Source: Megasphaera massiliensis (lineage in GTDB: Bacteria; Bacillota; Negativicutes; Veillonellales; Megasphaeraceae). Taken from it: DNA of 52,202 bases. The notes under the pieces were generated by a model. That model ran no database searches and was not told where the DNA came from. It was given only the letters and a program-made list of their open reading frames with translations. Of the stretch, positions 1 to 50,032 are shown one piece after another. The position numbers and the translations under genes were made by a program. The number at the start of each line of letters is the position of its first letter. Within the stretch, counting starts at the first letter, position 1. The stretch covers positions 1,073,408-1,125,609 of the forward strand of contig NZ_HF954537.1 of the NCBI RefSeq assembly GCF_000455225.1, given 5' to 3'.

Positions 1-43
1 AAAAATCCCCCTAAAGTTGGATTTTTAGTCCAACTTTAGGGGG
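1..43 (-). terminator. Intrinsic terminator of the XRE/ImmA operon
   Basis: A perfect 15-bp inverted repeat (7-21 with 29-43) with a 7-base loop is followed on the minus strand by a run of five T (positions 5-1). It lies 44 bases past the stop of the 87-1226 gene. Its arm sequence is closely related to the plus-strand terminator at 23921-23965. Confidence 0.8.
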
Positions 44-86
44 AAGCAGTTCAACATCATGAGCACTCTTTACATCATTTTTAAAA

Positions 87-1226
87 TTACTTTATTAATC
101 GTAATTTAGGCTGATATAATTTTATATTCTTATCAAATACATGACTAGATATATTACATAATTCACAAAAATCCTCTTTAGGTAACGCTATTTTTTGGAG
201 TATTTCTTCAGCTGAAACAACACCAGATTCCATCAGTATTTCTACGGCATCATGTAACAAAGTAGGCTTTTCGGGAATAAATTTCTCGTCATATGGCTCA
301 TTTTTTTTCATGCCACGTGCGGCCAATTGTCTCCACAAATAACTTGTCTGATTTTCAGACAATATGCCTAATTCCTTACATCTATATATCATCGCTGCAA
401 TAGACACTTTCCATTCTTTCTTTAATTGTATAAAATAGTCCAAAGAGGTAGAAACAATCTGATTCCCAAATGTTTCTCTTGGTAATAAAAATGCGCCAGC
501 AAAATAATTAGCTTCTTTCTCAATTTTTTTTAATAACTCCTTATTCATCATATCTTCTGTAATATGATGTAAAATTAAATGTCCCAATTCATGAGCCAAA
601 TCAAAACGTGATCGCACAGCAACATTTTTATCTGCTGTCAAAAAAATATATGGCCGATTTTCAGACCATTTAGAGCATCCATCTGATTTTGAAACTTTAA
701 TTTTTGTACGAGCAATGAAACAGCCTTTATTTTGCAATAGAGCTGTCAAATTTGAAATCGGTCCTAACCCCAAATTCCAATGTTGTCGCAACAATTTACT
801 CAAATTTTCAATTTCTTCAGCCGAATAGTTTTGATTGATTGTTTGCTGTTTAATTGTAACTTCAGGAAATTCTAAATATTGAGAGAAATATCTTACTATT
901 CGTTTTATCCACTCAGCACGAATAGATATTTTTTCTCTTTCCATTTTTGAAGCCGTTGCTAATGAACGAAATAATATTGCCGTATCCGATGATTCATAAT
1001 CAAGAGTTGAATTATAAAAATAATATAACGGAAAATTCAATAATTCCACGTACTTATTGAAAATTTCTGCTTTAGGGAACATGCATCCTTCTTCATATTT
1101 GCTAATAGTTTGCCGGCTTACTCCAAACAAGTTTCCTAATTTAGATTGGCTATACCCTCTAGCTATTCTTGCTTCTTTTAGCCTAACAGAATTTATTTTT
1201 TGTATAGGAGTGATATTACTTTTCAT
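87..1226 (-). CDS. XRE-family regulator fused to ImmA/IrrE metallopeptidase
   Basis: 379 residues. Residues about 15-55 form an XRE-type helix-turn-helix. The C-terminal half is an ImmA/IrrE (COG2856) zinc peptidase: HELGH sits at 212-216 and a downstream glutamate in the EKEANYFAGAFLLP stretch near 238 is the likely third ligand. Family members such as ImmA cleave a cognate repressor, and IrrE/DdrO pairs work similarly; fused HTH-peptidases also occur as single regulators or in toxin-antitoxin-like loci. It is the last gene of a three-gene minus-strand cassette, 13 bp after the 89-residue gene. The islet is clearly more AT-rich than the flanking core genes, which suggests horizontal transfer. 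The domain call is firm. The biological role (stress switch, TA or phage-related control) is not shown by the sequence. Confidence 0.88.
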   Translation of the reverse strand: MKSNITPIQKINSVRLKEARIARGYSQSKLGNLFGVSRQTISKYEEGCMFPKAEIFNKYVELLNFPLYYFYNSTLDYESSDTAILFRSLATASKMEREKISIRAEWIKRIVRYFSQYLEFPEVTIKQQTINQNYSAEEIENLSKLLRQHWNLGLGPISNLTALLQNKGCFIARTKIKVSKSDGCSKWSENRPYIFLTADKNVAVRSRFDLAHELGHLILHHITEDMMNKELLKKIEKEANYFAGAFLLPRETFGNQIVSTSLDYFIQLKKEWKVSIAAMIYRCKELGILSENQTSYLWRQLAARGMKKNEPYDEKFIPEKPTLLHDAVEILMESGVVSAEEILQKIALPKEDFCELCNISSHVFDKNIKLYQPKLRLIK

Positions 1227-1239
1227 TACAACTGCCTTC

Positions 1240-1509
1240 CTATTTTATTTTTTCGCCCAATATATTTTCAATATTTTTTAACTTAGGTCGAGCAATTTCA
1301 ATAACTGCACTTTCACTTTTAGGTATTAACACAAGGTTTTGTGTACGATCAAACAAATACACTTGATTTCCTATCCAAGATTTCGTATCTTTCCTAGGAA
1401 ATCCCATTCTTGCAAAACTCATTTTGTTACCATTCCCACCATGCGTCAAAATAGCATACGCTATTCCATCTATGTCTGTCATCTCTAACTCAGGAAATAA
1501 AGAAATCAT
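1240..1509 (-). CDS. Hypothetical protein, middle gene of XRE/ImmA cassette
   Basis: 89 residues, no recognised family. It is predicted soluble and mixed alpha/beta, with no signal peptide or membrane segment. Its ATG overlaps the stop of the upstream 121-residue gene in an ATGA arrangement, so translation is probably coupled. An alternative reading is that this and the 121-residue gene are two halves of one ancestral protein of about 210 residues split by a frameshift. The clean ATGA overlap favours two coupled genes, but sequence alone does not decide. AT-rich codon use matches its cassette partners. Confidence 0.65.
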   Translation of the reverse strand: MISLFPELEMTDIDGIAYAILTHGGNGNKMSFARMGFPRKDTKSWIGNQVYLFDRTQNLVLIPKSESAVIEIARPKLKNIENILGEKIK

Positions 1510-1871
1510 ATCGTTATTCTGTGCATAATTTTTTCTAAAAATAGCATCTCGTGGAAAGCTATTTTTTTTGACACTTTAGAAACGGTAAATTCTATGCCAT
1601 CTCCTCTAAATAAGTAGTAATAACTATTTCTAGCTTTATTCATACATTCTTCTACAGAAAATGGAATTTCTCCAGCATCACACAAACTTTTAATGTTATA
1701 GTCATATAATACGTTTACTAAATGTGGATGCAAGCTACGTCCTCGCTCAGACATCCCCAATGAAGTGGTTTCTAATAACTCTGCTCCATATTGATAAGCT
1801 TGTATTCCAGCTTGAGCTAAGAAGTTACGACACGAAGCACTAAAATGATGACTCAAAATTAAATTACGCAT
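1506..1871 (-). CDS. Hypothetical protein, first gene of XRE/ImmA cassette
   Basis: 121 residues, no family recognised. It is the promoter-proximal gene of the cassette, with a GAAAGGA-type ribosome binding site upstream of its ATG. It is soluble by composition, with a cysteine/histidine-containing N-terminus and a charged C-terminus. A TTGACA-17-TAAAAT promoter sits about 50 bases upstream. Two unknown small proteins co-transcribed with an XRE/ImmA regulator fit a stress-response, toxin-antitoxin or phage-related cassette. That is inference from context only. Confidence 0.65.
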   Translation of the reverse strand: MRNLILSHHFSASCRNFLAQAGIQAYQYGAELLETTSLGMSERGRSLHPHLVNVLYDYNIKSLCDAGEIPFSVEECMNKARNSYYYLFRGDGIEFTVSKVSKKIAFHEMLFLEKIMHRITI

Positions 1872-1921
1872 TTTTTCATTTCCTTTCTATAAGCCTTTTC
1901 GAACATTTATTCTATGCACCT

Positions 1922-1975
1922 ATTTTACATTTTTAAATATATTTTGTCAACTAAAAAATTACTATTTTCTAGTAA
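1922..1975 (-). promoter_or_regulatory. Sigma-A promoter and operator-like palindrome of XRE/ImmA cassette
   Basis: On the minus strand TTGACA (1950-1945) and TAAAAT (1927-1922) are separated by 17 bp. Just upstream of the -35 box is an inverted repeat TTACTA-5-TAGTAA (1959-1975), suited to an HTH dimer. Autoregulation by the cassette XRE protein is inferred. Confidence 0.7.
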
Positions 1976-2032
1976 ACTACTACCCGTAAAGTAGTCACTT
2001 GAAAAAATATAATAGGGCTGATTGTATAATGA

Positions 2033-2275
2033 ATTCAGACATATAAAAAGTACGGTGTTTCCTACCAACAGGCACGCAGCTATACGCTGAAATATGAGGC
2101 TGGTGGTCTTGATGCCTTGCAGGATAATCGCGAGAAAAGGAAATTAGAAGACTCACTAACGGAAATAGAAAAATTACATGCCGAGCTCAAACTGGAAAGA
2201 GCTAAGCGAAAACAGTCGGAAATGGAGATTTCTTTCTTAAAAAAATTGGACAAAATAGAGAGGAGGCGGGACTGA
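2033..2275 (+). pseudogene. IS3-family OrfA, 5'-truncated
   Basis: Open frame of about 80 codons from just after a TGA at 2030-2032 to TGA at 2273-2275. It encodes the second half of an IS150-type OrfA: a KYGVSYQQARSY helix followed by the basic/acidic coiled region before the OrfA-OrfB junction. No start codon or N-terminal HTH is present, because only about 20 bases separate it from the left IS end. An internal deletion of roughly 200-250 bp is the simplest explanation. Confidence 0.8.
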
Positions 2276-2277
2276 AC

Positions 2278-3173
2278 CGACTGAAAAAACTTCATATTTA
2301 CTTAGCCATTAAGGAAGAACACGAGGAGCATCACTATCCTATTTCAGCCTTATGCAAATTAGGAAGCGTGACCAGAGCCACTTATTACAAATGGCTTCAT
2401 CGTCGACTGCCTGCAAATGAGCAAGAAAACCGGCTGGCTGCCGAAAGAATAGAAGAAATTCACCGGGCTTATCCGGACAAAGGCTACCGCCGAATTCGAG
2501 ACGATATGGAACGGTATTATGGCATGCACCTCAATGACAAACGCGTACTCCGGATTTGTCGTGAAGAAAACATCAAGTCCACCATTAAGTATCGCAGCCA
2601 CGGATGTACTCGTCGGGCTTCAACTCCGCAATTTATAGCAGAAAATATTCTGGGCAGAGACTTTATGGTGGAAGCCCTAATGAAAAATGGCTTACAGATG
2701 TTACCGAATTTAAGTATTATCTTGGAAATGAAGTTCATAAAATATATCTGAGCGCTATCCTTGATTTGTATGACCGAAGAATTGTCTCTTTCGTAATTCG
2801 TAATAGAAATGACAATTTCTTAGTATTCGATACCTTCCATCAAGCCATTGCTTGCAATCCAGAGGCCCATCCGCTATTTCATAGCGACCGAGGCTTTCAA
2901 TATACAAACAGAAGTTTCCATGCCAAACTGAAGGCCGCAGGAATGGTACAAAGCATGTCCCGAGTGGGAAAATGTATTGACAATAGCCCTGTGGAAGGGT
3001 TTTGGAGAATCTTAAAGCGCGAACGTTACTATGGTCATCGTTTTACAGATAGAGAAACACTGATTAAAGCGATAGAAGAATATATTGAATACTACAATAA
3101 CAAACGATTACAGAGAAATCTGGGAGTATTAACTCCAATGGAAAAACATGCCAGCTATTGGCTGGCAGCATAA
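2278..3173 (+). pseudogene. IS3-family OrfB transposase (rve/DDE), frameshifted
   Basis: Integrase-core transposase with all three catalytic acidic residues in recognisable context: TDVTEF, FHSDRGFQYT and the E of VEGFWRILKRE. The N-terminal HTH_21-like part (KGYRRIRDDM) reads in one frame to about 2661, and the DDE core continues in the -1 frame. Restoring one T in the TTT at 2662-2664 gives a continuous D-F-Y-G-G-S-P-N-E-K-W junction, so a single-base deletion is the likely lesion. The shift is inside OrfB and not at the OrfA/OrfB boundary, so it is not the programmed frameshift typical of the family. Confidence 0.88.
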
Positions 3174-3177
3174 AAAA

Positions 3178-3200
3178 CTGCCACCGGAAACCGGTGGCAG
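3178..3200 (+). repeat. Subterminal hairpin of the IS
   Basis: Perfect 10-bp inverted repeat with an AAA loop (CTGCCACCGG / CCGGTGGCAG), starting a few bases after the OrfB stop. A decayed version (GCCGGTTTCCG) survives at the same place in the remnant near 36144-36155, so it belongs to the element and not to the host. Confidence 0.75.
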
Positions 3201-3290
3201 AAACAAAACCTATTTATGTTTTTCCGAGTGTCTACTTGACGAGTAGCAGTTCATTCCTCTGAATGAGGCAATGGCGCTGTTTTACTTGTT

Positions 3291-23920: not shown

Positions 23921-23965
23921 CCCCCTGACATTGGACAAAAAATCCAAAGTTTAGGGGGATTTTTA
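23921..23965 (+). terminator. Terminator of fsr
   Basis: CCCCCT-N4-TTGGA pairs with TCCAA-N5-AGGGGG, followed by ATTTTT. Arms are closely related to the minus-strand terminator at 1-43. Confidence 0.85.
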
Positions 23966-32760: not shown

Positions 32761-33234
32761 TTATTCTGCTGAGTTGTTAAAGACACGTTCTTTTATGAAG
32801 TTTACGATGCTCTGTTTATCATTTTGCGTTTTCAGATAGGTCAACGCATCTTCATCTTGGAAAACCCCCATGAGGTTCTGCAGGAGATCGATTTGTGCGT
32901 GCGGCTCTTTCATAGCTAACATGACAACGAGATCGACGGAAACCGTTTCTTCATCGTCACCCATGATGACAAAGTCGACGGGCTTCGTTAAACGCGCGAA
33001 ACAGATAGCCGGTTCATTTACGTGTTCGGCATCCGTATGGGGAATCGCTACCCCTCCTGCGATAGTCGGCAGGCCGGTAGCAAAGACTTTTTCCCGGGCA
33101 ATGACAGCGTCTTTATAACTATCCTTGACATACCCCAGTTTTTGCAAATGACATGCTAACTGTTCTAATAAATCAAATTTGTCTTTGGCTTCTACATTGA
33201 GGAGAACGAGCTCCTGCTGTATTGTACTATCCAT
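32761..33234 (-). CDS. PTS fructose/mannitol-type IIA subunit
   Basis: 157 residues from the ATG at 33234 (GAGG six bases upstream; an ATG two codons earlier overlaps that site). PF00359-type IIA with the phosphorylated histidine in GGVAIPHTDAEHV. It receives phosphate from HPr. First gene of the IIA-IIB-IIC set, with an activator-type promoter upstream. Confidence 0.93.
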   Translation of the reverse strand: MDSTIQQELVLLNVEAKDKFDLLEQLACHLQKLGYVKDSYKDAVIAREKVFATGLPTIAGGVAIPHTDAEHVNEPAICFARLTKPVDFVIMGDDEETVSVDLVVMLAMKEPHAQIDLLQNLMGVFQDEDALTYLKTQNDKQSIVNFIKERVFNNSAE

Positions 33235-33304
33235 ATGCATCCTCTTTTCTTTATGTGATAATTTTTATGGTTCTGTATTTGTGTCTTTCTCTTGAGCTGA
33301 CTAC

Positions 33305-33409
33305 AGTATACCAAGTGAGAACTTTCCCTCATAGTTATAGTTACTTCCACGCATGCGGAAATTTTTCATTCTTCATGGGCCGATTTATTTCCTAAATCGA
33401 ATTGCGGAA
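33305..33409 (-). promoter_or_regulatory. Activator-dependent promoter and operators of the PTS operon
   Basis: -10 TATACT (33310-33305) with a poor -35 (TATGAG, 33333-33328) at 17 bp. Upstream are two TTCC...GGAA palindromes: 33345-33360 (8-base spacer) and 33389-33409 (13-base spacer). The first starts 11 bp beyond the -35, exactly as at the regulator's own promoter. The 33241-33499 interval holds no gene. Confidence 0.65.
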
Positions 33410-33441
33410 AATTCTTACAAGTAATACCTTCCTGGAAAAAT

Positions 33442-33476
33442 AAAAAAGAGAGACGGTTTTAACACCATCTCTCTTT
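33442..33476 (-). terminator. Terminator of the second IIB gene
   Basis: 10-bp AGAGAGACGG/CCATCTCTCT stem (one mismatch), then TTTTTTATTTTT on the minus strand. It isolates the spare IIB gene from the main PTS operon. Confidence 0.88.
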
Positions 33477-33499
33477 TCAAAAAGTATTTCGCTATAAAA

Positions 33500-33790
33500 T
33501 TATGCTTTGAGGACTTCTACAATTTCCGCAATTACCTTGTCTTTTCCGATTCCCGTAAGGAAAGGTCGACCACCGATGACAGGGAACTTATATTGATCCT
33601 TATCGACGACCGTCGTCGTAATCAAGAGGTCGGCCCGGTCTGCATAGCCCGGAACTTCCATCATCTTGCACTGGATAATATCCACGTTCAAATCGTTTTC
33701 ATTGGCAATTTTCTGTACAACCGTGCTGACAACCGTAGAAGTGGCAATGCCGGTGCCACAGGCAATTAAAACAGTTTTTTTCGCATTCAT
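33500..33790 (-). CDS. Second, near-duplicate PTS IIB subunit
   Basis: 96 residues, Cys11 in the same CGTGIATSTVV loop. It differs from the operon IIB at about 17 positions, mostly in the helix after the phosphorylation loop and the C-terminal helix, while the central MMEVPGYADRADLL block is identical. It sits between the regulator and the PTS operon with its own terminator and likely its own promoter (TATAAT near 33817), so it can be expressed alone. It may serve as a phosphate sink or signal donor to the PRD regulator (inference), or be a simple spare. Confidence 0.92.
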   Translation of the reverse strand: MNAKKTVLIACGTGIATSTVVSTVVQKIANENDLNVDIIQCKMMEVPGYADRADLLITTTVVDKDQYKFPVIGGRPFLTGIGKDKVIAEIVEVLKA

Positions 33791-33864
33791 AGTAACATCT
33801 CCTTACGTTTTCAAATATTATAATTTATATAGGACGCAGCCCTGTAGCAGGAACTTCGTGATCC

Positions 33865-35790
33865 TTATGGTATCACCTCGGCAAAGAGGCTCATAAATTG
33901 TTCAAAATCCCGAATTTTCCGCATTTGCTCGGCACCATTTCCGTCTTTGATGAAATTATATAACCGCAAGAATACCTTTTCCCACAGTGCCGATTTTTCT
34001 TGTTCAATAGTCAACAAAAAGACGATCTGCACCTGCATGTCCCCCCAAGGAATGGGCTTTTGCAAGGTCAGCACGGAAATATTGGATTTGACATGTTCCG
34101 TATCCATGGCATGAGGCAAAGCAGCCAAGTTACCGACGGCCGTCGAGCTAAGTTGTTCCCGTTCAAAGACGGATTGCTTGCTCTGTTCATCCATATAGCC
34201 GCCTTGAACGGCTTGATCCGTGAGAAATTCCAAGCATTCTTCCCGTGTTTTAAAATCTTTATTAAGAAAGAAGGAGTCACCATGGAAAAAGCCTTTCATC
34301 AAATCATCACTGCCGACTTCATCTTGGCGATGGAAAACGACGCGTTGGATTTTTTCGATGTCTTCTTTTTGCAGCATGTGATTGACGCTTAAGATTTTCG
34401 GCGATTCCATCGGTAATGGTACCGTAGAGAAGATAAAGTCGGTATCATCGATGATATCCTGGGTCACCTTGTATGCAGGCAGGACATCGACGACTTGTAT
34501 GCTGTTGCGGAAATGTTCCCGAACCTTGGCCTTTAAGAGCATCGAAACCCCCAGTCCTGCAGAGCAGACGATATACACTCGTTTTACTTCATCGAGATCC
34601 ATCATGCTGTTCCGGCTCATGGCAGCCCCAAAATGGAGCGCAATATAACCGATTTCATTTTCATTAAACTGGACACCTTCGATATCGCTCACAATCTTTG
34701 CGGCATAGACGGAAATCTGGAAAGGCACGGGATAGTCATGCTTTACCGTTTCTAGAAGTTCATTCCGTATGGCCATGTGGAACTGGACGCGGGCAATAGC
34801 AATGCGCAGATGCAGCATGAGCCCTTCTTTCAAGTACGAATCGTCGCTAAAATCGAGACCGAACTTTTCATCTACCCTGTCCAGTATGGTTTCTACCAAT
34901 TGCCGGATGTGATCATCATTCAATCCCGATTCACCATCGTGGAACTTTTTCCCCGTCAAGAGGCACTGAGTCAGATAAAACACCTCGCTAAAGGGCAAAT
35001 CGATGGACAGCTTTTCGTTAATACTGTTGGCGATTTTCTTTGCCGTATCGTGTTCAAAGGAAACTTCCAGTTTTTGAGCCAGACTAGACGTAATAGCCAA
35101 GGTATGGCCCCGTTGTGACCGCAATACAGATAAGGCAACCTGTACGATAAGGTTATGCTGTGCCGTATCGGTAAAAGGCAGATTGCGAACTTCAGAAATA
35201 TTGAGCAAAATATCTTGATACTGTACATCAGACGTCTGTGAAAAAATCCGTTCTTTAACGAGGGGATTCTCTACTTCTTGAAGATAATCGACGATAAAGC
35301 TGCGGATATTTCCCTCTTCACCGGCGATTCGCAAGCCTTCTGTTTTGTACTGTTCCAGTGTCAGGTTCCATTCCTCTAGTTTCAGCCGCGTTTCGGCAAG
35401 GTATTTTTTTATCGTTGAAATACCAACATGCATCTCTTCAGAAAGATGCATCTGCGTAACCGAATCATCATCGAGACACGCTACGATAAACCGACCGATA
35501 ATATAATTCTGTTGTGATACAGACTGTAACATTCCTACCTGAGTTTTAGATTCATCGGAAAGTTGAAGAAGCACTTCTCTCGGTTCCTTCACTTCCAATC
35601 GATAGCCTTTATTGGGGGCAGCAATGATTTCGCTTTTAAAGGACTGCAACCGTTCCTGTAACTTTTTCATATCCGATCGGACAGTACGGGAAGAAACGCC
35701 GATCTGCGTGGCAATGTCTTCCCCAGTCATGCCTTCCGGACGGGTAATGAGAAGCTCTATAATTTTTTTCTTTCGTGACTTTTTGTCCAT
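33865..35790 (-). CDS. PRD-containing transcriptional activator (MtlR/LicR type)
   Basis: 641 residues from the ATG at 35790 (GGGGG site upstream); the in-frame ATG at 35847 falls in repeats and is rejected. Order: DeoR/HTH_11-type helix-turn-helix (about 5-45), second helical HTH (to 140), PRD1 (about 185-285), PRD2 (about 295-395), an EIIB-Gat-like domain with Cys409 in IVCSAGLGVSM, and an EIIA type 2 domain with His560 in ALPHAMDTEHV. Such activators are switched by PTS phosphorylation: HPr at PRDs, and IIA/IIB at the C-terminal domains. It is upstream of, and parallel to, the PTS operon, sharing an operator motif with it. Confidence 0.93.
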   Translation of the reverse strand: MDKKSRKKKIIELLITRPEGMTGEDIATQIGVSSRTVRSDMKKLQERLQSFKSEIIAAPNKGYRLEVKEPREVLLQLSDESKTQVGMLQSVSQQNYIIGRFIVACLDDDSVTQMHLSEEMHVGISTIKKYLAETRLKLEEWNLTLEQYKTEGLRIAGEEGNIRSFIVDYLQEVENPLVKERIFSQTSDVQYQDILLNISEVRNLPFTDTAQHNLIVQVALSVLRSQRGHTLAITSSLAQKLEVSFEHDTAKKIANSINEKLSIDLPFSEVFYLTQCLLTGKKFHDGESGLNDDHIRQLVETILDRVDEKFGLDFSDDSYLKEGLMLHLRIAIARVQFHMAIRNELLETVKHDYPVPFQISVYAAKIVSDIEGVQFNENEIGYIALHFGAAMSRNSMMDLDEVKRVYIVCSAGLGVSMLLKAKVREHFRNSIQVVDVLPAYKVTQDIIDDTDFIFSTVPLPMESPKILSVNHMLQKEDIEKIQRVVFHRQDEVGSDDLMKGFFHGDSFFLNKDFKTREECLEFLTDQAVQGGYMDEQSKQSVFEREQLSSTAVGNLAALPHAMDTEHVKSNISVLTLQKPIPWGDMQVQIVFLLTIEQEKSALWEKVFLRLYNFIKDGNGAEQMRKIRDFEQFMSLFAEVIP

Positions 35791-35829
35791 ACAACTATTT
35801 CCCCCTTTTGTATGGAAGTTTCGTATCGG

Positions 35830-35897
35830 TATATACCGAAACAGCATATATACGGCAATATCGTATATACCGCAACGCTGTGTATACCGTAATATTA
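35830..35897 (-). repeat. Four tandem 17-bp repeats in the PRD-regulator leader
   Basis: Units start at 35830, 35847, 35864 and 35881, exactly 17 bp apart. Core TATATACCG-N-AA on the plus strand, with one GG variant and one TGTATACCG variant. They lie between the predicted -10 box (35927-35932) and the start codon at 35790, so they would be in the 5' untranslated RNA. They could be protein sites or an RNA feature. Confidence 0.75.
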
Positions 35898-35926
35898 TGA
35901 TATATATGCATAATATTGTTCACTTT

Positions 35927-35984
35927 ATTATAACAGTTTCCGTATTTACATCATAGACGGATTTATTTCCGCAATTTACGGAAA
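35927..35984 (-). promoter_or_regulatory. Promoter and operator of the PRD regulator
   Basis: -10 TATAAT (35932-35927), poor -35 TATGAT (35955-35950) at 17 bp, and the palindrome TTTCCGCAATTTACGGAAA at 35966-35984. A half-site TTTCCGTA lies at 35937. The layout matches the PTS promoter, so positive autoregulation is inferred. Confidence 0.6.
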
Positions 35985-36098
35985 CGGCGGTCATCGAAAC
36001 GCATAGGATTTTCACTTTCAATAAATCATGAAAACCTTTGCCGCATCTGCTTTAGGATGCTGAAAAAAATACAAAGCCACTGTATCGTGACCGGTTAA

Positions 36099-48467: not shown

Positions 48468-49304
48468 TTATTCCGATCGTTGTAAGGAGCGAAGCAGTGC
48501 AATTTCCCGCGCATAGCCGTCGAGTTCATTGGGCGTCTCTAAATAAAACGGCAGGGCCCGCAGGGCCGGATGATTGACGATGGCATCAAAGGCGGCAATA
48601 CCGATATGGCCCTCACCGATTTTCTCGTGGCGGTCTTTATGGCTGGCCAGTTCGTTCTTGCTGTCGTTGATGTGGACGGCCTTCAGCCGGTCGAGACCGA
48701 TGACCTTATCGAAGGTCAAGAGGACGTCGTCGAGCTCATGGACGATGTCGTAGCCGCCGTCAAAGACGTGGCATGTATCGAGGCAGACGCCGATTTTATC
48801 ATTCATAACGGCCTTATCGATGATGGCCGCCAATTCTTCAAAGGTCCGCCCGACTTCCGTCCCCTTGCCGGCCATGGTTTCTAAGAGGACTGTCGTCTTC
48901 TGACCGGCAAACATGCAGGTATTGAGCATGTCGGCAATGAGGTCGATGCCCTTTTCCGGCCCTTGGCCGACGTGGCTGCCGGGATGGAAATTATAACGGC
49001 AGTTATCGAGGTATTCCAGGCGGCGCAGGTCATCGGCCATGGCCTGACGGGCAAATTCCCGTGTCTTTTCGGTCTGGGAACAGCCGTTTAAGGTATAAGG
49101 AGCGTGGGCTAAGATCGGGGCAAAATGGTGTTTCTTCATGAGTTCATTCAAGGCTTCCATATCATCGATATCGAGCTTTCGCACCTTGCTTCCCCGCGGA
49201 TTGCGCGAAAAAAATTGGAACGTATCGGCTCCTATAGATAAAGCTTCGTCACCCATATGCAAAAATCCTTGTGACACCGACAGGTGACAACCAATATGCA
49301 GCAT
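48468..49304 (-). CDS. nfo: Deoxyribonuclease IV (AP endonuclease)
   Basis: 278 residues from the ATG at 49304, preceded by AAAGGAAATGTT; longer in-frame starts are rejected. TIM-barrel of the Nfo family: [12 protein letters not shown] start, [29 protein letters not shown] and [17 protein letters not shown] hold the three-zinc ligands. It cuts abasic sites in base-excision repair. Confidence 0.96.
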
Positions 49305-49349
49305 AACATTTCCTTTCTTCTCGTTGAGACGTATACTATCATTATATAT

Positions 49350-49390
49350 AAAAATACTGCCGCACAAAACCGACAGGTCTCGTGCGACAG
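49350..49390 (-). terminator. Terminator of the Fur-family gene
   Basis: 9-bp CTGTCGCAC/GTGCGGCAG stem (one wobble), then TATTTTTATA on the minus strand, shortly past the stop at 49416. Confidence 0.82.
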
Positions 49391-49415
49391 CAGCGAAAAC
49401 AGACGTTACAACCTA

Positions 49416-49826
49416 TTACGATTTTTCCCGACATTTCGGGCACACACCGACAAACGAAACACTTACACCATTGACCGTAAAACCAGTCTGTTCGGCAGCC
49501 AACTGACTCAGATGCTTCTGATCCAAGTCGATATCCATGACGCGGTTGCACTTCTCACAGCGAATGTGAGCGTGAGGGTTCGTGTTATAATCATAACGAT
49601 GGGCATCTTCTGCACATTGCAAGACTTGTACGACACCTATTTTAGCAAAAATTTCCATGGTTTTATATACCGTGGCCATACTCATAGACGGGTAGTTCGG
49701 CTGTAAGGTTTTGTAAATAGCTTCGGCATTGGGATGCATCGGGTTGTGAATGATCGCATCATAGACAGCCAGCCGCTGCGGTGTGACTTTATAACCGTTT
49801 TTTCGCAAAACTTCAGCAATTTCCAT
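49416..49826 (-). CDS. Fur/PerR-family metalloregulator
   Basis: 136 residues from the ATG at 49826 (AAAGGGGG site); longer in-frame starts are rejected. N-terminal winged helix (KVTPQRLAVYDAII, then SMATVYKTMEIF), a dimer domain with HAHIRCEKC and CPKC zinc pairs. The HRYDYNTNPHAH region carries the regulatory metal ligands, in a PerR-like spacing. Fur (iron), PerR (peroxide) and Zur cannot be separated firmly here. PerR is favoured in an anaerobe (inference). Repeats TTACATG-6-TTACATG lie upstream. Confidence 0.9.
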   Translation of the reverse strand: MEIAEVLRKNGYKVTPQRLAVYDAIIHNPMHPNAEAIYKTLQPNYPSMSMATVYKTMEIFAKIGVVQVLQCAEDAHRYDYNTNPHAHIRCEKCNRVMDIDLDQKHLSQLAAEQTGFTVNGVSVSFVGVCPKCREKS

Positions 49827-49890
49827 TTTTATCCCCCTTTCTTTGAAAAATATGGTATAATAAGACATTATAGCTTTATTCCACATGGAC

Positions 49891-49910
49891 TTACATGAGT
49901 AATTTACATG
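49891..49910. promoter_or_regulatory. Direct TTACATG repeats upstream of the Fur-family gene
   Basis: TTACATG at 49891-49897 and 49904-49910, 13 bp apart, between the divergent Fur-family and tex genes. A possible operator; not a classical Fur or Per box. Confidence 0.4.
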
Positions 49911-50032
49911 GTCAAAAAATAGAATATCCTTATTATATTGTAACGGTTATTAAGAGAAAATTCAATGACTTGTGTAAAGTTTCTCTTACAAAATAAGCAA
50001 TCTTAACTATACATTATGGAGGGAATGAATTC

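Follow-up and report, generated by a model that had tools for sequence, protein, structure and literature searches.

A broken RosmerTA toxin–antitoxin operon in Megasphaera massiliensis and a clamp-binding-like motif in its toxin family

The three apparent genes at positions 87-1871 (minus strand) of the 52,202-nucleotide stretch of Megasphaera massiliensis DNA analysed here (the window) are a two-gene RosmerTA toxin–antitoxin operon, a known type of anti-phage system that is broken in this copy; the part worth following is a motif, found at the level of the toxin family, that is like a clamp-binding peptide. We propose, as the probable reading, that the broken operon lies on an acquired insert and that the toxin RmrT, when intact, docks on the replication clamp DnaN, with RmrA as its repressor or neutraliser. 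The first-pass annotation of this DNA had suggested an undescribed toxin–antitoxin or defence module; PADLOC matches to RmrA and RmrT bear out the module, which is of the known RosmerTA kind and not a new one, its intact relatives having a single toxin ORF. The features of the locus are as follows.

6-44, minus strand: terminator-like stem-loop followed by T5, which may be a mobile-element end (from its fold and the repeat of one arm)
87-1226, minus strand: third ORF, 379 aa, predicted antitoxin RmrA with an XRE-type HTH and an ImmA/M78 metalloprotease domain (profile matches)
579-593, minus strand: HELGH codons of RmrA; H212, E213 and H216 are invariant in alignment A2
1240-1509, minus strand: second small ORF, 89 aa, predicted C-terminal part of RmrT (PADLOC PDLC03933)
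1495-1509, minus strand: M-I-S-L-F codons, at the position of the clamp-binding-like motif in intact relatives, with the Q missing
1506-1871, minus strand: first small ORF, 121 aa, predicted N-terminal part of RmrT (PADLOC PDLC03933)
1562-1569, minus strand: A8 run, read as T8 on the plus strand, where the toxin frame changes (from the frames and the alignment with intact relatives)
1922-1950, minus strand: promoter-like TTGACA-17-TAAAAT, 5' of the toxin gene, with 11/12 consensus matches
1981-3246 (about), plus strand: damaged, presumably IS3-type element at the right border of the cassette (from its ORFs; one full copy in the genome)

Profile searches identified the 379-aa protein as the antitoxin RmrA by its sequence. 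It carries an XRE-type HTH and a Peptidase_M78/ImmA domain with HELGH, as the first-pass annotation of a fused HTH/HELGH peptidase had it, and 14 RmrA models were among the PADLOC matches listed for it (best 1.2e-135). It also matched the phage regulator family phrog_2439 (8.2e-107) and NCBIfam NF052239, the spr1629 antitoxin family, at 7.4e-72, with a score of 242.5 bits that lies below the cut-off of 335.

The two small ORFs upstream overlap through ATGA, as first described, and had been taken for two unknown, separate proteins; judged by their sequence, they are two parts of one RmrT toxin that is split at the A8 run. A profile search of both, which the first-pass annotation had suggested, placed them on consecutive parts of the 212-position PADLOC RmrT model PDLC03933, the 121-aa ORF at 9-107 (4.2e-10) and the 89-aa ORF at 136-205 (1.2e-6), and fragments of a known single protein were what that annotation had itself named as the finding that would count against it. 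The 121-aa ORF ends with about 18 out-of-frame residues, and the family sequence runs on past 1562-1569 in the -1 frame. The protein obtained by reading through the break matched PDLC03933 over residues 5-200 at 4.7e-28 and aligned without any gap at the break to six intact relatives (L004-L007, Ligilactobacillus salivarius plasmid pMP118 and Lacticaseibacillus phage R24.2), each of which has a single toxin ORF directly upstream of RmrA. Other collections gave the toxin no convincing name: PHROG matches to the small ORFs were weak (0.027 and 0.23), Pfam and NCBIfam searches with the two halves yielded nothing convincing, and the read-through protein had no Pfam or NCBIfam match at E <= 0.1. 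Two matches of relatives, that of L006 to the UpxY antiterminator model (4.2e-4, far below the cut-off) and that of L005 to the spr1630 toxin model (0.051), were given no weight. Of the features that define RosmerTA, the locus has an antitoxin with an XRE-type HTH and an ImmA/M78 domain, and an adjacent RmrT-family toxin, matched by both halves and by the read-through; the frame change leaves the toxin gene as something other than one ORF, and the locus is therefore filed as a broken member.

Another interpretation of the two small ORFs is that they encode two genuine proteins acting together with RmrA; their ATGA overlap would permit translational coupling, and the second ORF starts inside a natural loop of the toxin. 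We regard this as very improbable, as the two ORFs fall on successive stretches of a single family, the helix between the halves is encoded in the frame of neither, and the two-ORF form at this place occurred in none of the sampled relatives.

The RmrA alignment A2 led to 80 genome loci (the best 80 of at least 519 relatives) and 31 viral loci, in which RmrT was called by an iterated profile at E < 1e-4 and RmrA ORFs were counted from 250 aa upwards. Such an ORF was present in 80/80 genome loci of this best-80 set and in 28/31 viral loci, and was absent from the other three viral loci. RmrT lay beside RmrA in 65/80 of these best genome loci and 23/28 viral loci, so that the co-occurrence outside this genome on which the first-pass annotation had staked its module does hold, with RmrT in place of the two small genes. 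The end of RmrT overlapped the start of RmrA, or lay within 60 bases of it, in 64/65 genome and 23/23 viral loci. RmrA stood without RmrT at 20 loci; at 13 of these an ORF of 187 aa or more lying upstream was taken as the partner and the other 7 were not used. The toxin model is rare nearer home, PDLC03933 being matched in 5/398 whole genomes of the phylum, this one included, and the first toxin half in 1/61 genomes of the order, which is this genome. The first half was not found in plasmids, the cassette DNA was not found in plasmids or phages, and neither a single-protein RmrA query nor an exact pattern found further copies of the cassette in viral contigs. We note that Paenibacillus phage Dash (L011, 2462-3529) carries an RmrA-like gene, 42% identical, with no RmrT detectable within the stretch; a solitary RmrA-like antitoxin of this kind could be an anti-defence device.

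The split of the toxin gene is not conserved among relatives. Of the 88 loci with both genes (not de-duplicated), 86 had a toxin ORF of 180 aa or longer; the exceptions were L058 (133 aa) and L036 (135 and 83 aa), and the indels of L036 relative to its own relatives fall at places other than the break in the window. One explanation for the break that does not involve decay is that the ribosome or RNA polymerase slips by -1 at the A8 run to give full-length toxin, the split being a form of dose control. The run reads A-AAA-AAA in the frame of the first ORF, which is a classical slippery heptamer, and the -1 frame leads into the C-terminal part. However, the unconserved split and the different breaks of L036 make this improbable, as does the RNA 3' of the run, which folded no better than shuffles (z +0.62), and the adjoining IS looks frame-broken too. 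A programmed frameshift was rejected as a candidate because the split is unconserved and the RNA fold ordinary. Another possibility, which we consider unlikely, is that a homopolymer error in sequencing or assembly has broken a gene that is whole in the living strain. The break does sit in a homopolymer and near an assembly gap of 676 N, and no second copy of the cassette was found for comparison in genomes of the order, plasmids or phages; against this, two other T8 runs inside rmrA (301 and 524) are in frame, and the neighbouring ORFs, which we take to be yebC-, trmD- and rimM-like, are open. We prefer to see the cassette as a defence module that is most likely in decay, and the split is read as decay because it is unconserved, because the RNA is not folded beyond chance and because the neighbouring IS is frame-broken. 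The toxin of the window itself would then be inactive or made in traces only. More generally, the locus is a caution that what looks like a pair of unknown coupled genes can be a single toxin gene that has broken.

The cassette differs in composition from its surroundings, the GC content of 87-1871 being 0.320, while 472 overlapping windows of equal length, taken from 3291 onwards, went no lower than 0.415, which agrees with the first-pass description of a stretch far more AT-rich than its neighbours. That description had also credited the cassette with a dedicated promoter and terminator. The promoter-like site upstream of the toxin gene is present, at the 11/12 matches listed above, and sites of this kind are at chance level in so AT-rich a stretch (12 found against 10.6 expected). 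The terminator is uncertain and perhaps belongs to a mobile element, because one arm of the stem-loop at 6-44 recurs at 23931-23964 (91% over 34 columns) and because an assembly gap abuts the first base of the window, position 1 being the first base after a 676-base N run in the genome. The whole palindrome at 1-50 is unique in the genome and may mark the end of an IS hidden in the gap. Elsewhere in the window, GC was also low at 33001-36000 (0.41-0.46) and at 49001-50000 (0.43), against about 0.52.

The bordering IS of the first-pass annotation was recovered on the right, at about 1981-3246, as an IS-like element with transposase ORFs that we take to be of IS3 type. Its transposase looks broken, with overlapping ORFs in different frames (2368-2751 and 2604-3173), and the genome holds one full copy of the element and four short partial matches. 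On the left, beyond the 676-base gap, lies another transposase ORF, presumably of IS200/IS605 type. A composite transposon was rejected as a candidate, the right-hand IS having no second copy on the left. Six stretches of sister species were fetched, of which two (G021 and G022) show an empty site and four match yebC only and are uninformative. G021 and G022 are without an IS-rich insert of about 5.3 kb that holds the cassette, and in both the DNA beside yebC joins, within a few bases, to DNA that in this genome lies about 5.3 kb off; the junction corresponds to L003 11362-11366 and window 3251-3253, and its left match covers no more than 52-54 bases at 83-87%. The segment that they lack comprises the left transposase ORF, the gap, the RosmerTA operon and the damaged right IS, and the best explanation is that the operon sits on a horizontally acquired, IS-rich insert. 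A 400-aa ORF further to the left in the same genome (L003 10076-11278) is also missing at this place from G021 and G022 and is presumably Fic-like, judging from an HPFYDGNGR stretch; the RmrTA pair of pMP118 also adjoins a Fic gene.

The bacterial clamp-binding pentapeptide is given as QL(S/D)LF in a review (PMC9690074), and a motif like Q-L-[S/D/T]-L-F occurs in many RmrT proteins, in some other partners of RmrA and in the RipA family. The window's own copy reads M-I-S-L-F, keeping I-S-L-F and lacking Q. For RmrT we used 87 distinct sequences of the 90 aligned, identical ones having been removed; the read-through protein, L003 (the window again), toxins shorter than 180 aa, and L005 and L007 (the same places as the duplicates L017 and L015) were left out of the counts. 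Over whole proteins, Q..[LIM][FLW] was found in 49/87 RmrT sequences, where shuffling gave 18.7 and no more than 33 in any of 300 rounds; the control RmrA gave 42/109 against 43.1. A strict form of the motif was present in 15/87 RmrT sequences against 1.86 expected, and in 8/297 unrelated ORFs of the same loci against 5.13 expected; the hexapeptide Q..[LIM].F showed no excess in RmrT (4/87 against 5.9 expected). The matches are also concentrated in position, with 35/87 sequences in one 10-column bin and at most four in any other, a count that takes the first of four motif classes, the looser of which match partly by chance. The other 52/87 show no Q..[LIM][FLWM] in this bin, some of them being clearly motif-free there. 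In L095 numbering the best conserved columns include N122 (79/87), L126 (L/M/F in 71/87) and F127 (F/L/W in 77/87); variants include QLSIF, QLDMF, QISLF, QFDLF, QRDLF and QYELF. Of 38 regex matches, at least one of which (L006) lies outside the loop, 27 have D, T, E or S at the third position.

In the AlphaFold models of two RmrT proteins, L095 (mean pLDDT 89.4) and L041 (85.2), the motif residues (123-127 and 131-135 respectively) begin a coil that links a helix to a strand, and the motif blocks are of lower model confidence (means 67 and 71). In these models both the placement in a coil and the lower confidence are as expected of a docking peptide. A different function for the fold would be that of a working nuclease of PD-(D/E)XK type, which the clamp might recruit to DNA, with toxicity due to DNA cutting. 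In structure the L095 model does match restriction endonucleases of EcoRV type best, over 125 residues at an rmsd of 4.0 and a Z of 6.5, which, being below 8, may reflect a common arrangement only. There are many nucleases in the Foldseek list, and among the 50 structural matches listed we take all to be nucleases or nuclease-fold proteins apart from three Rep15 and one SuhB. Foldseek with the RmrT model, however, gave no match at E <= 0.001, nor did a viral structure library at the same threshold, and over the 87 sequences the core strands (residues 74-101 of L095) hold no conserved acidic column. An active nuclease is thus a doubtful reading, and docking on DnaN is favoured over DNA cutting because the core strands are without conserved acidic residues.

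In the mechanism that we propose, the operon would be read in the order promoter, rmrT, rmrA, and intact RmrT would be a growth-arrest toxin. Its loop would present the clamp-binding-like motif Q-x-[S/D/T]-L-F, with which the toxin may occupy the hydrophobic pocket of its presumed target DnaN and block the partners of the clamp, so that replication of host and phage alike would stop. RmrA would hold the system in check at two levels, repressing the operon via its HTH and restraining RmrT via its ImmA-like domain; infection or replication stress would be the likely signals that release the toxin. Counting against this mechanism are the RmrT sequences that miss the motif in the main bin, the absent Q of the window's copy, the hexapeptide that shows no excess, the undetectable homology of RmrT and RipA, and the RipA-like proteins that miss the pentapeptide (see below). 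That DnaN is the target is something we infer from the motif by sequence comparison.

The closest comparison is RosmerTA itself, to which the locus is alike in its toxin and antitoxin families by PADLOC and in the order of toxin then antitoxin; RosmerTA relatives also have overlapping or nearly overlapping genes and occur on phages and plasmids. It differs in that the toxin gene of the window is split by a frame change. RipAB of Streptococcus pneumoniae (Spr1630-Spr1629) has an antitoxin of the same wider family, and RipA-family toxins also carry a QLSLF-like motif, but homology between RmrT and RipA is undetectable (hhalign E 0.18; 0.086 with one sequence), and NF052238, the RipAB toxin model, had no match to the read-through protein at E <= 0.1 and none in this genome. 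As described in PMC12795458, RipB antagonises RipA, and suppressors of RipA fall in the hydrophobic pocket of DnaN and weaken the RipA-DnaN interaction; the word 'motif' is absent from the main text of that paper. SocB of the Caulobacter crescentus SocAB system binds the clamp via a motif, which is the way proposed for RmrT (PMC9690074 for SocB), and RipA and SocB showed no homology with each other, nor did their antitoxins, in PMC12795458. The Rosmer system of Gordonia phage Kita, likened here by description, also pairs an ImmA-type antitoxin with a toxin named RmrT (RmrTD5); this toxin depolarises membranes (PMC10440598), which differs from what is proposed here and counts against the clamp model. 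In the literature as far as its text was available, no stated target of Rosmer toxins was found besides those of RipA and this one membrane toxin, and a search with most subscription papers and all bioRxiv preprints outside its reach did not bring up a clamp-binding motif reported for a Rosmer toxin.

The motif of the RipA family was counted in 24 distinct proteins of one bacterial family and L013 (n = 25), a set outside which pneumococcal RipA itself falls. QL[SAT][LFW] was found in 24/25 and the strict QL[SD]LF in 8/25 against 0.61 expected; the 25 proteins, being closely related, are not independent. The pentapeptide regex matched none of four further RipA-like proteins (three from plasmids, one from a phage record); inspection by eye showed QLELNF in L176 and QLVLNL in L177, and these two were left uncounted. 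Among the 13 RmrA partners outside the RmrT profile, five had the strict form against 0.37 expected (L078 QLSLF, L119 QLDLF, L089 QLTLF, L080 QMSMF and L085 QLSIL) and two a looser one (L092 QLLLF and L084 QQELF). The chances are about even, in our view, that RosmerTA systems are largely sliding-clamp poisons, in which toxins without detectable sequence relationship (RmrT, RipA-like ones and further small families) share an ImmA-type antitoxin and each bears a DnaN-docking peptide. If this is true, the class of antitoxin goes with a common target and not with a common toxin fold, and a motif common to several toxin families would tie a group of ImmA-type toxin–antitoxin systems to replication arrest. 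On their sequences, the partners at L078 193-933, L119 2303-2953 and L120 2314-2982 are possible further families of clamp-docking toxins, and the last of these, which also lies outside the RmrT profile, reads QLSLPF by eye.
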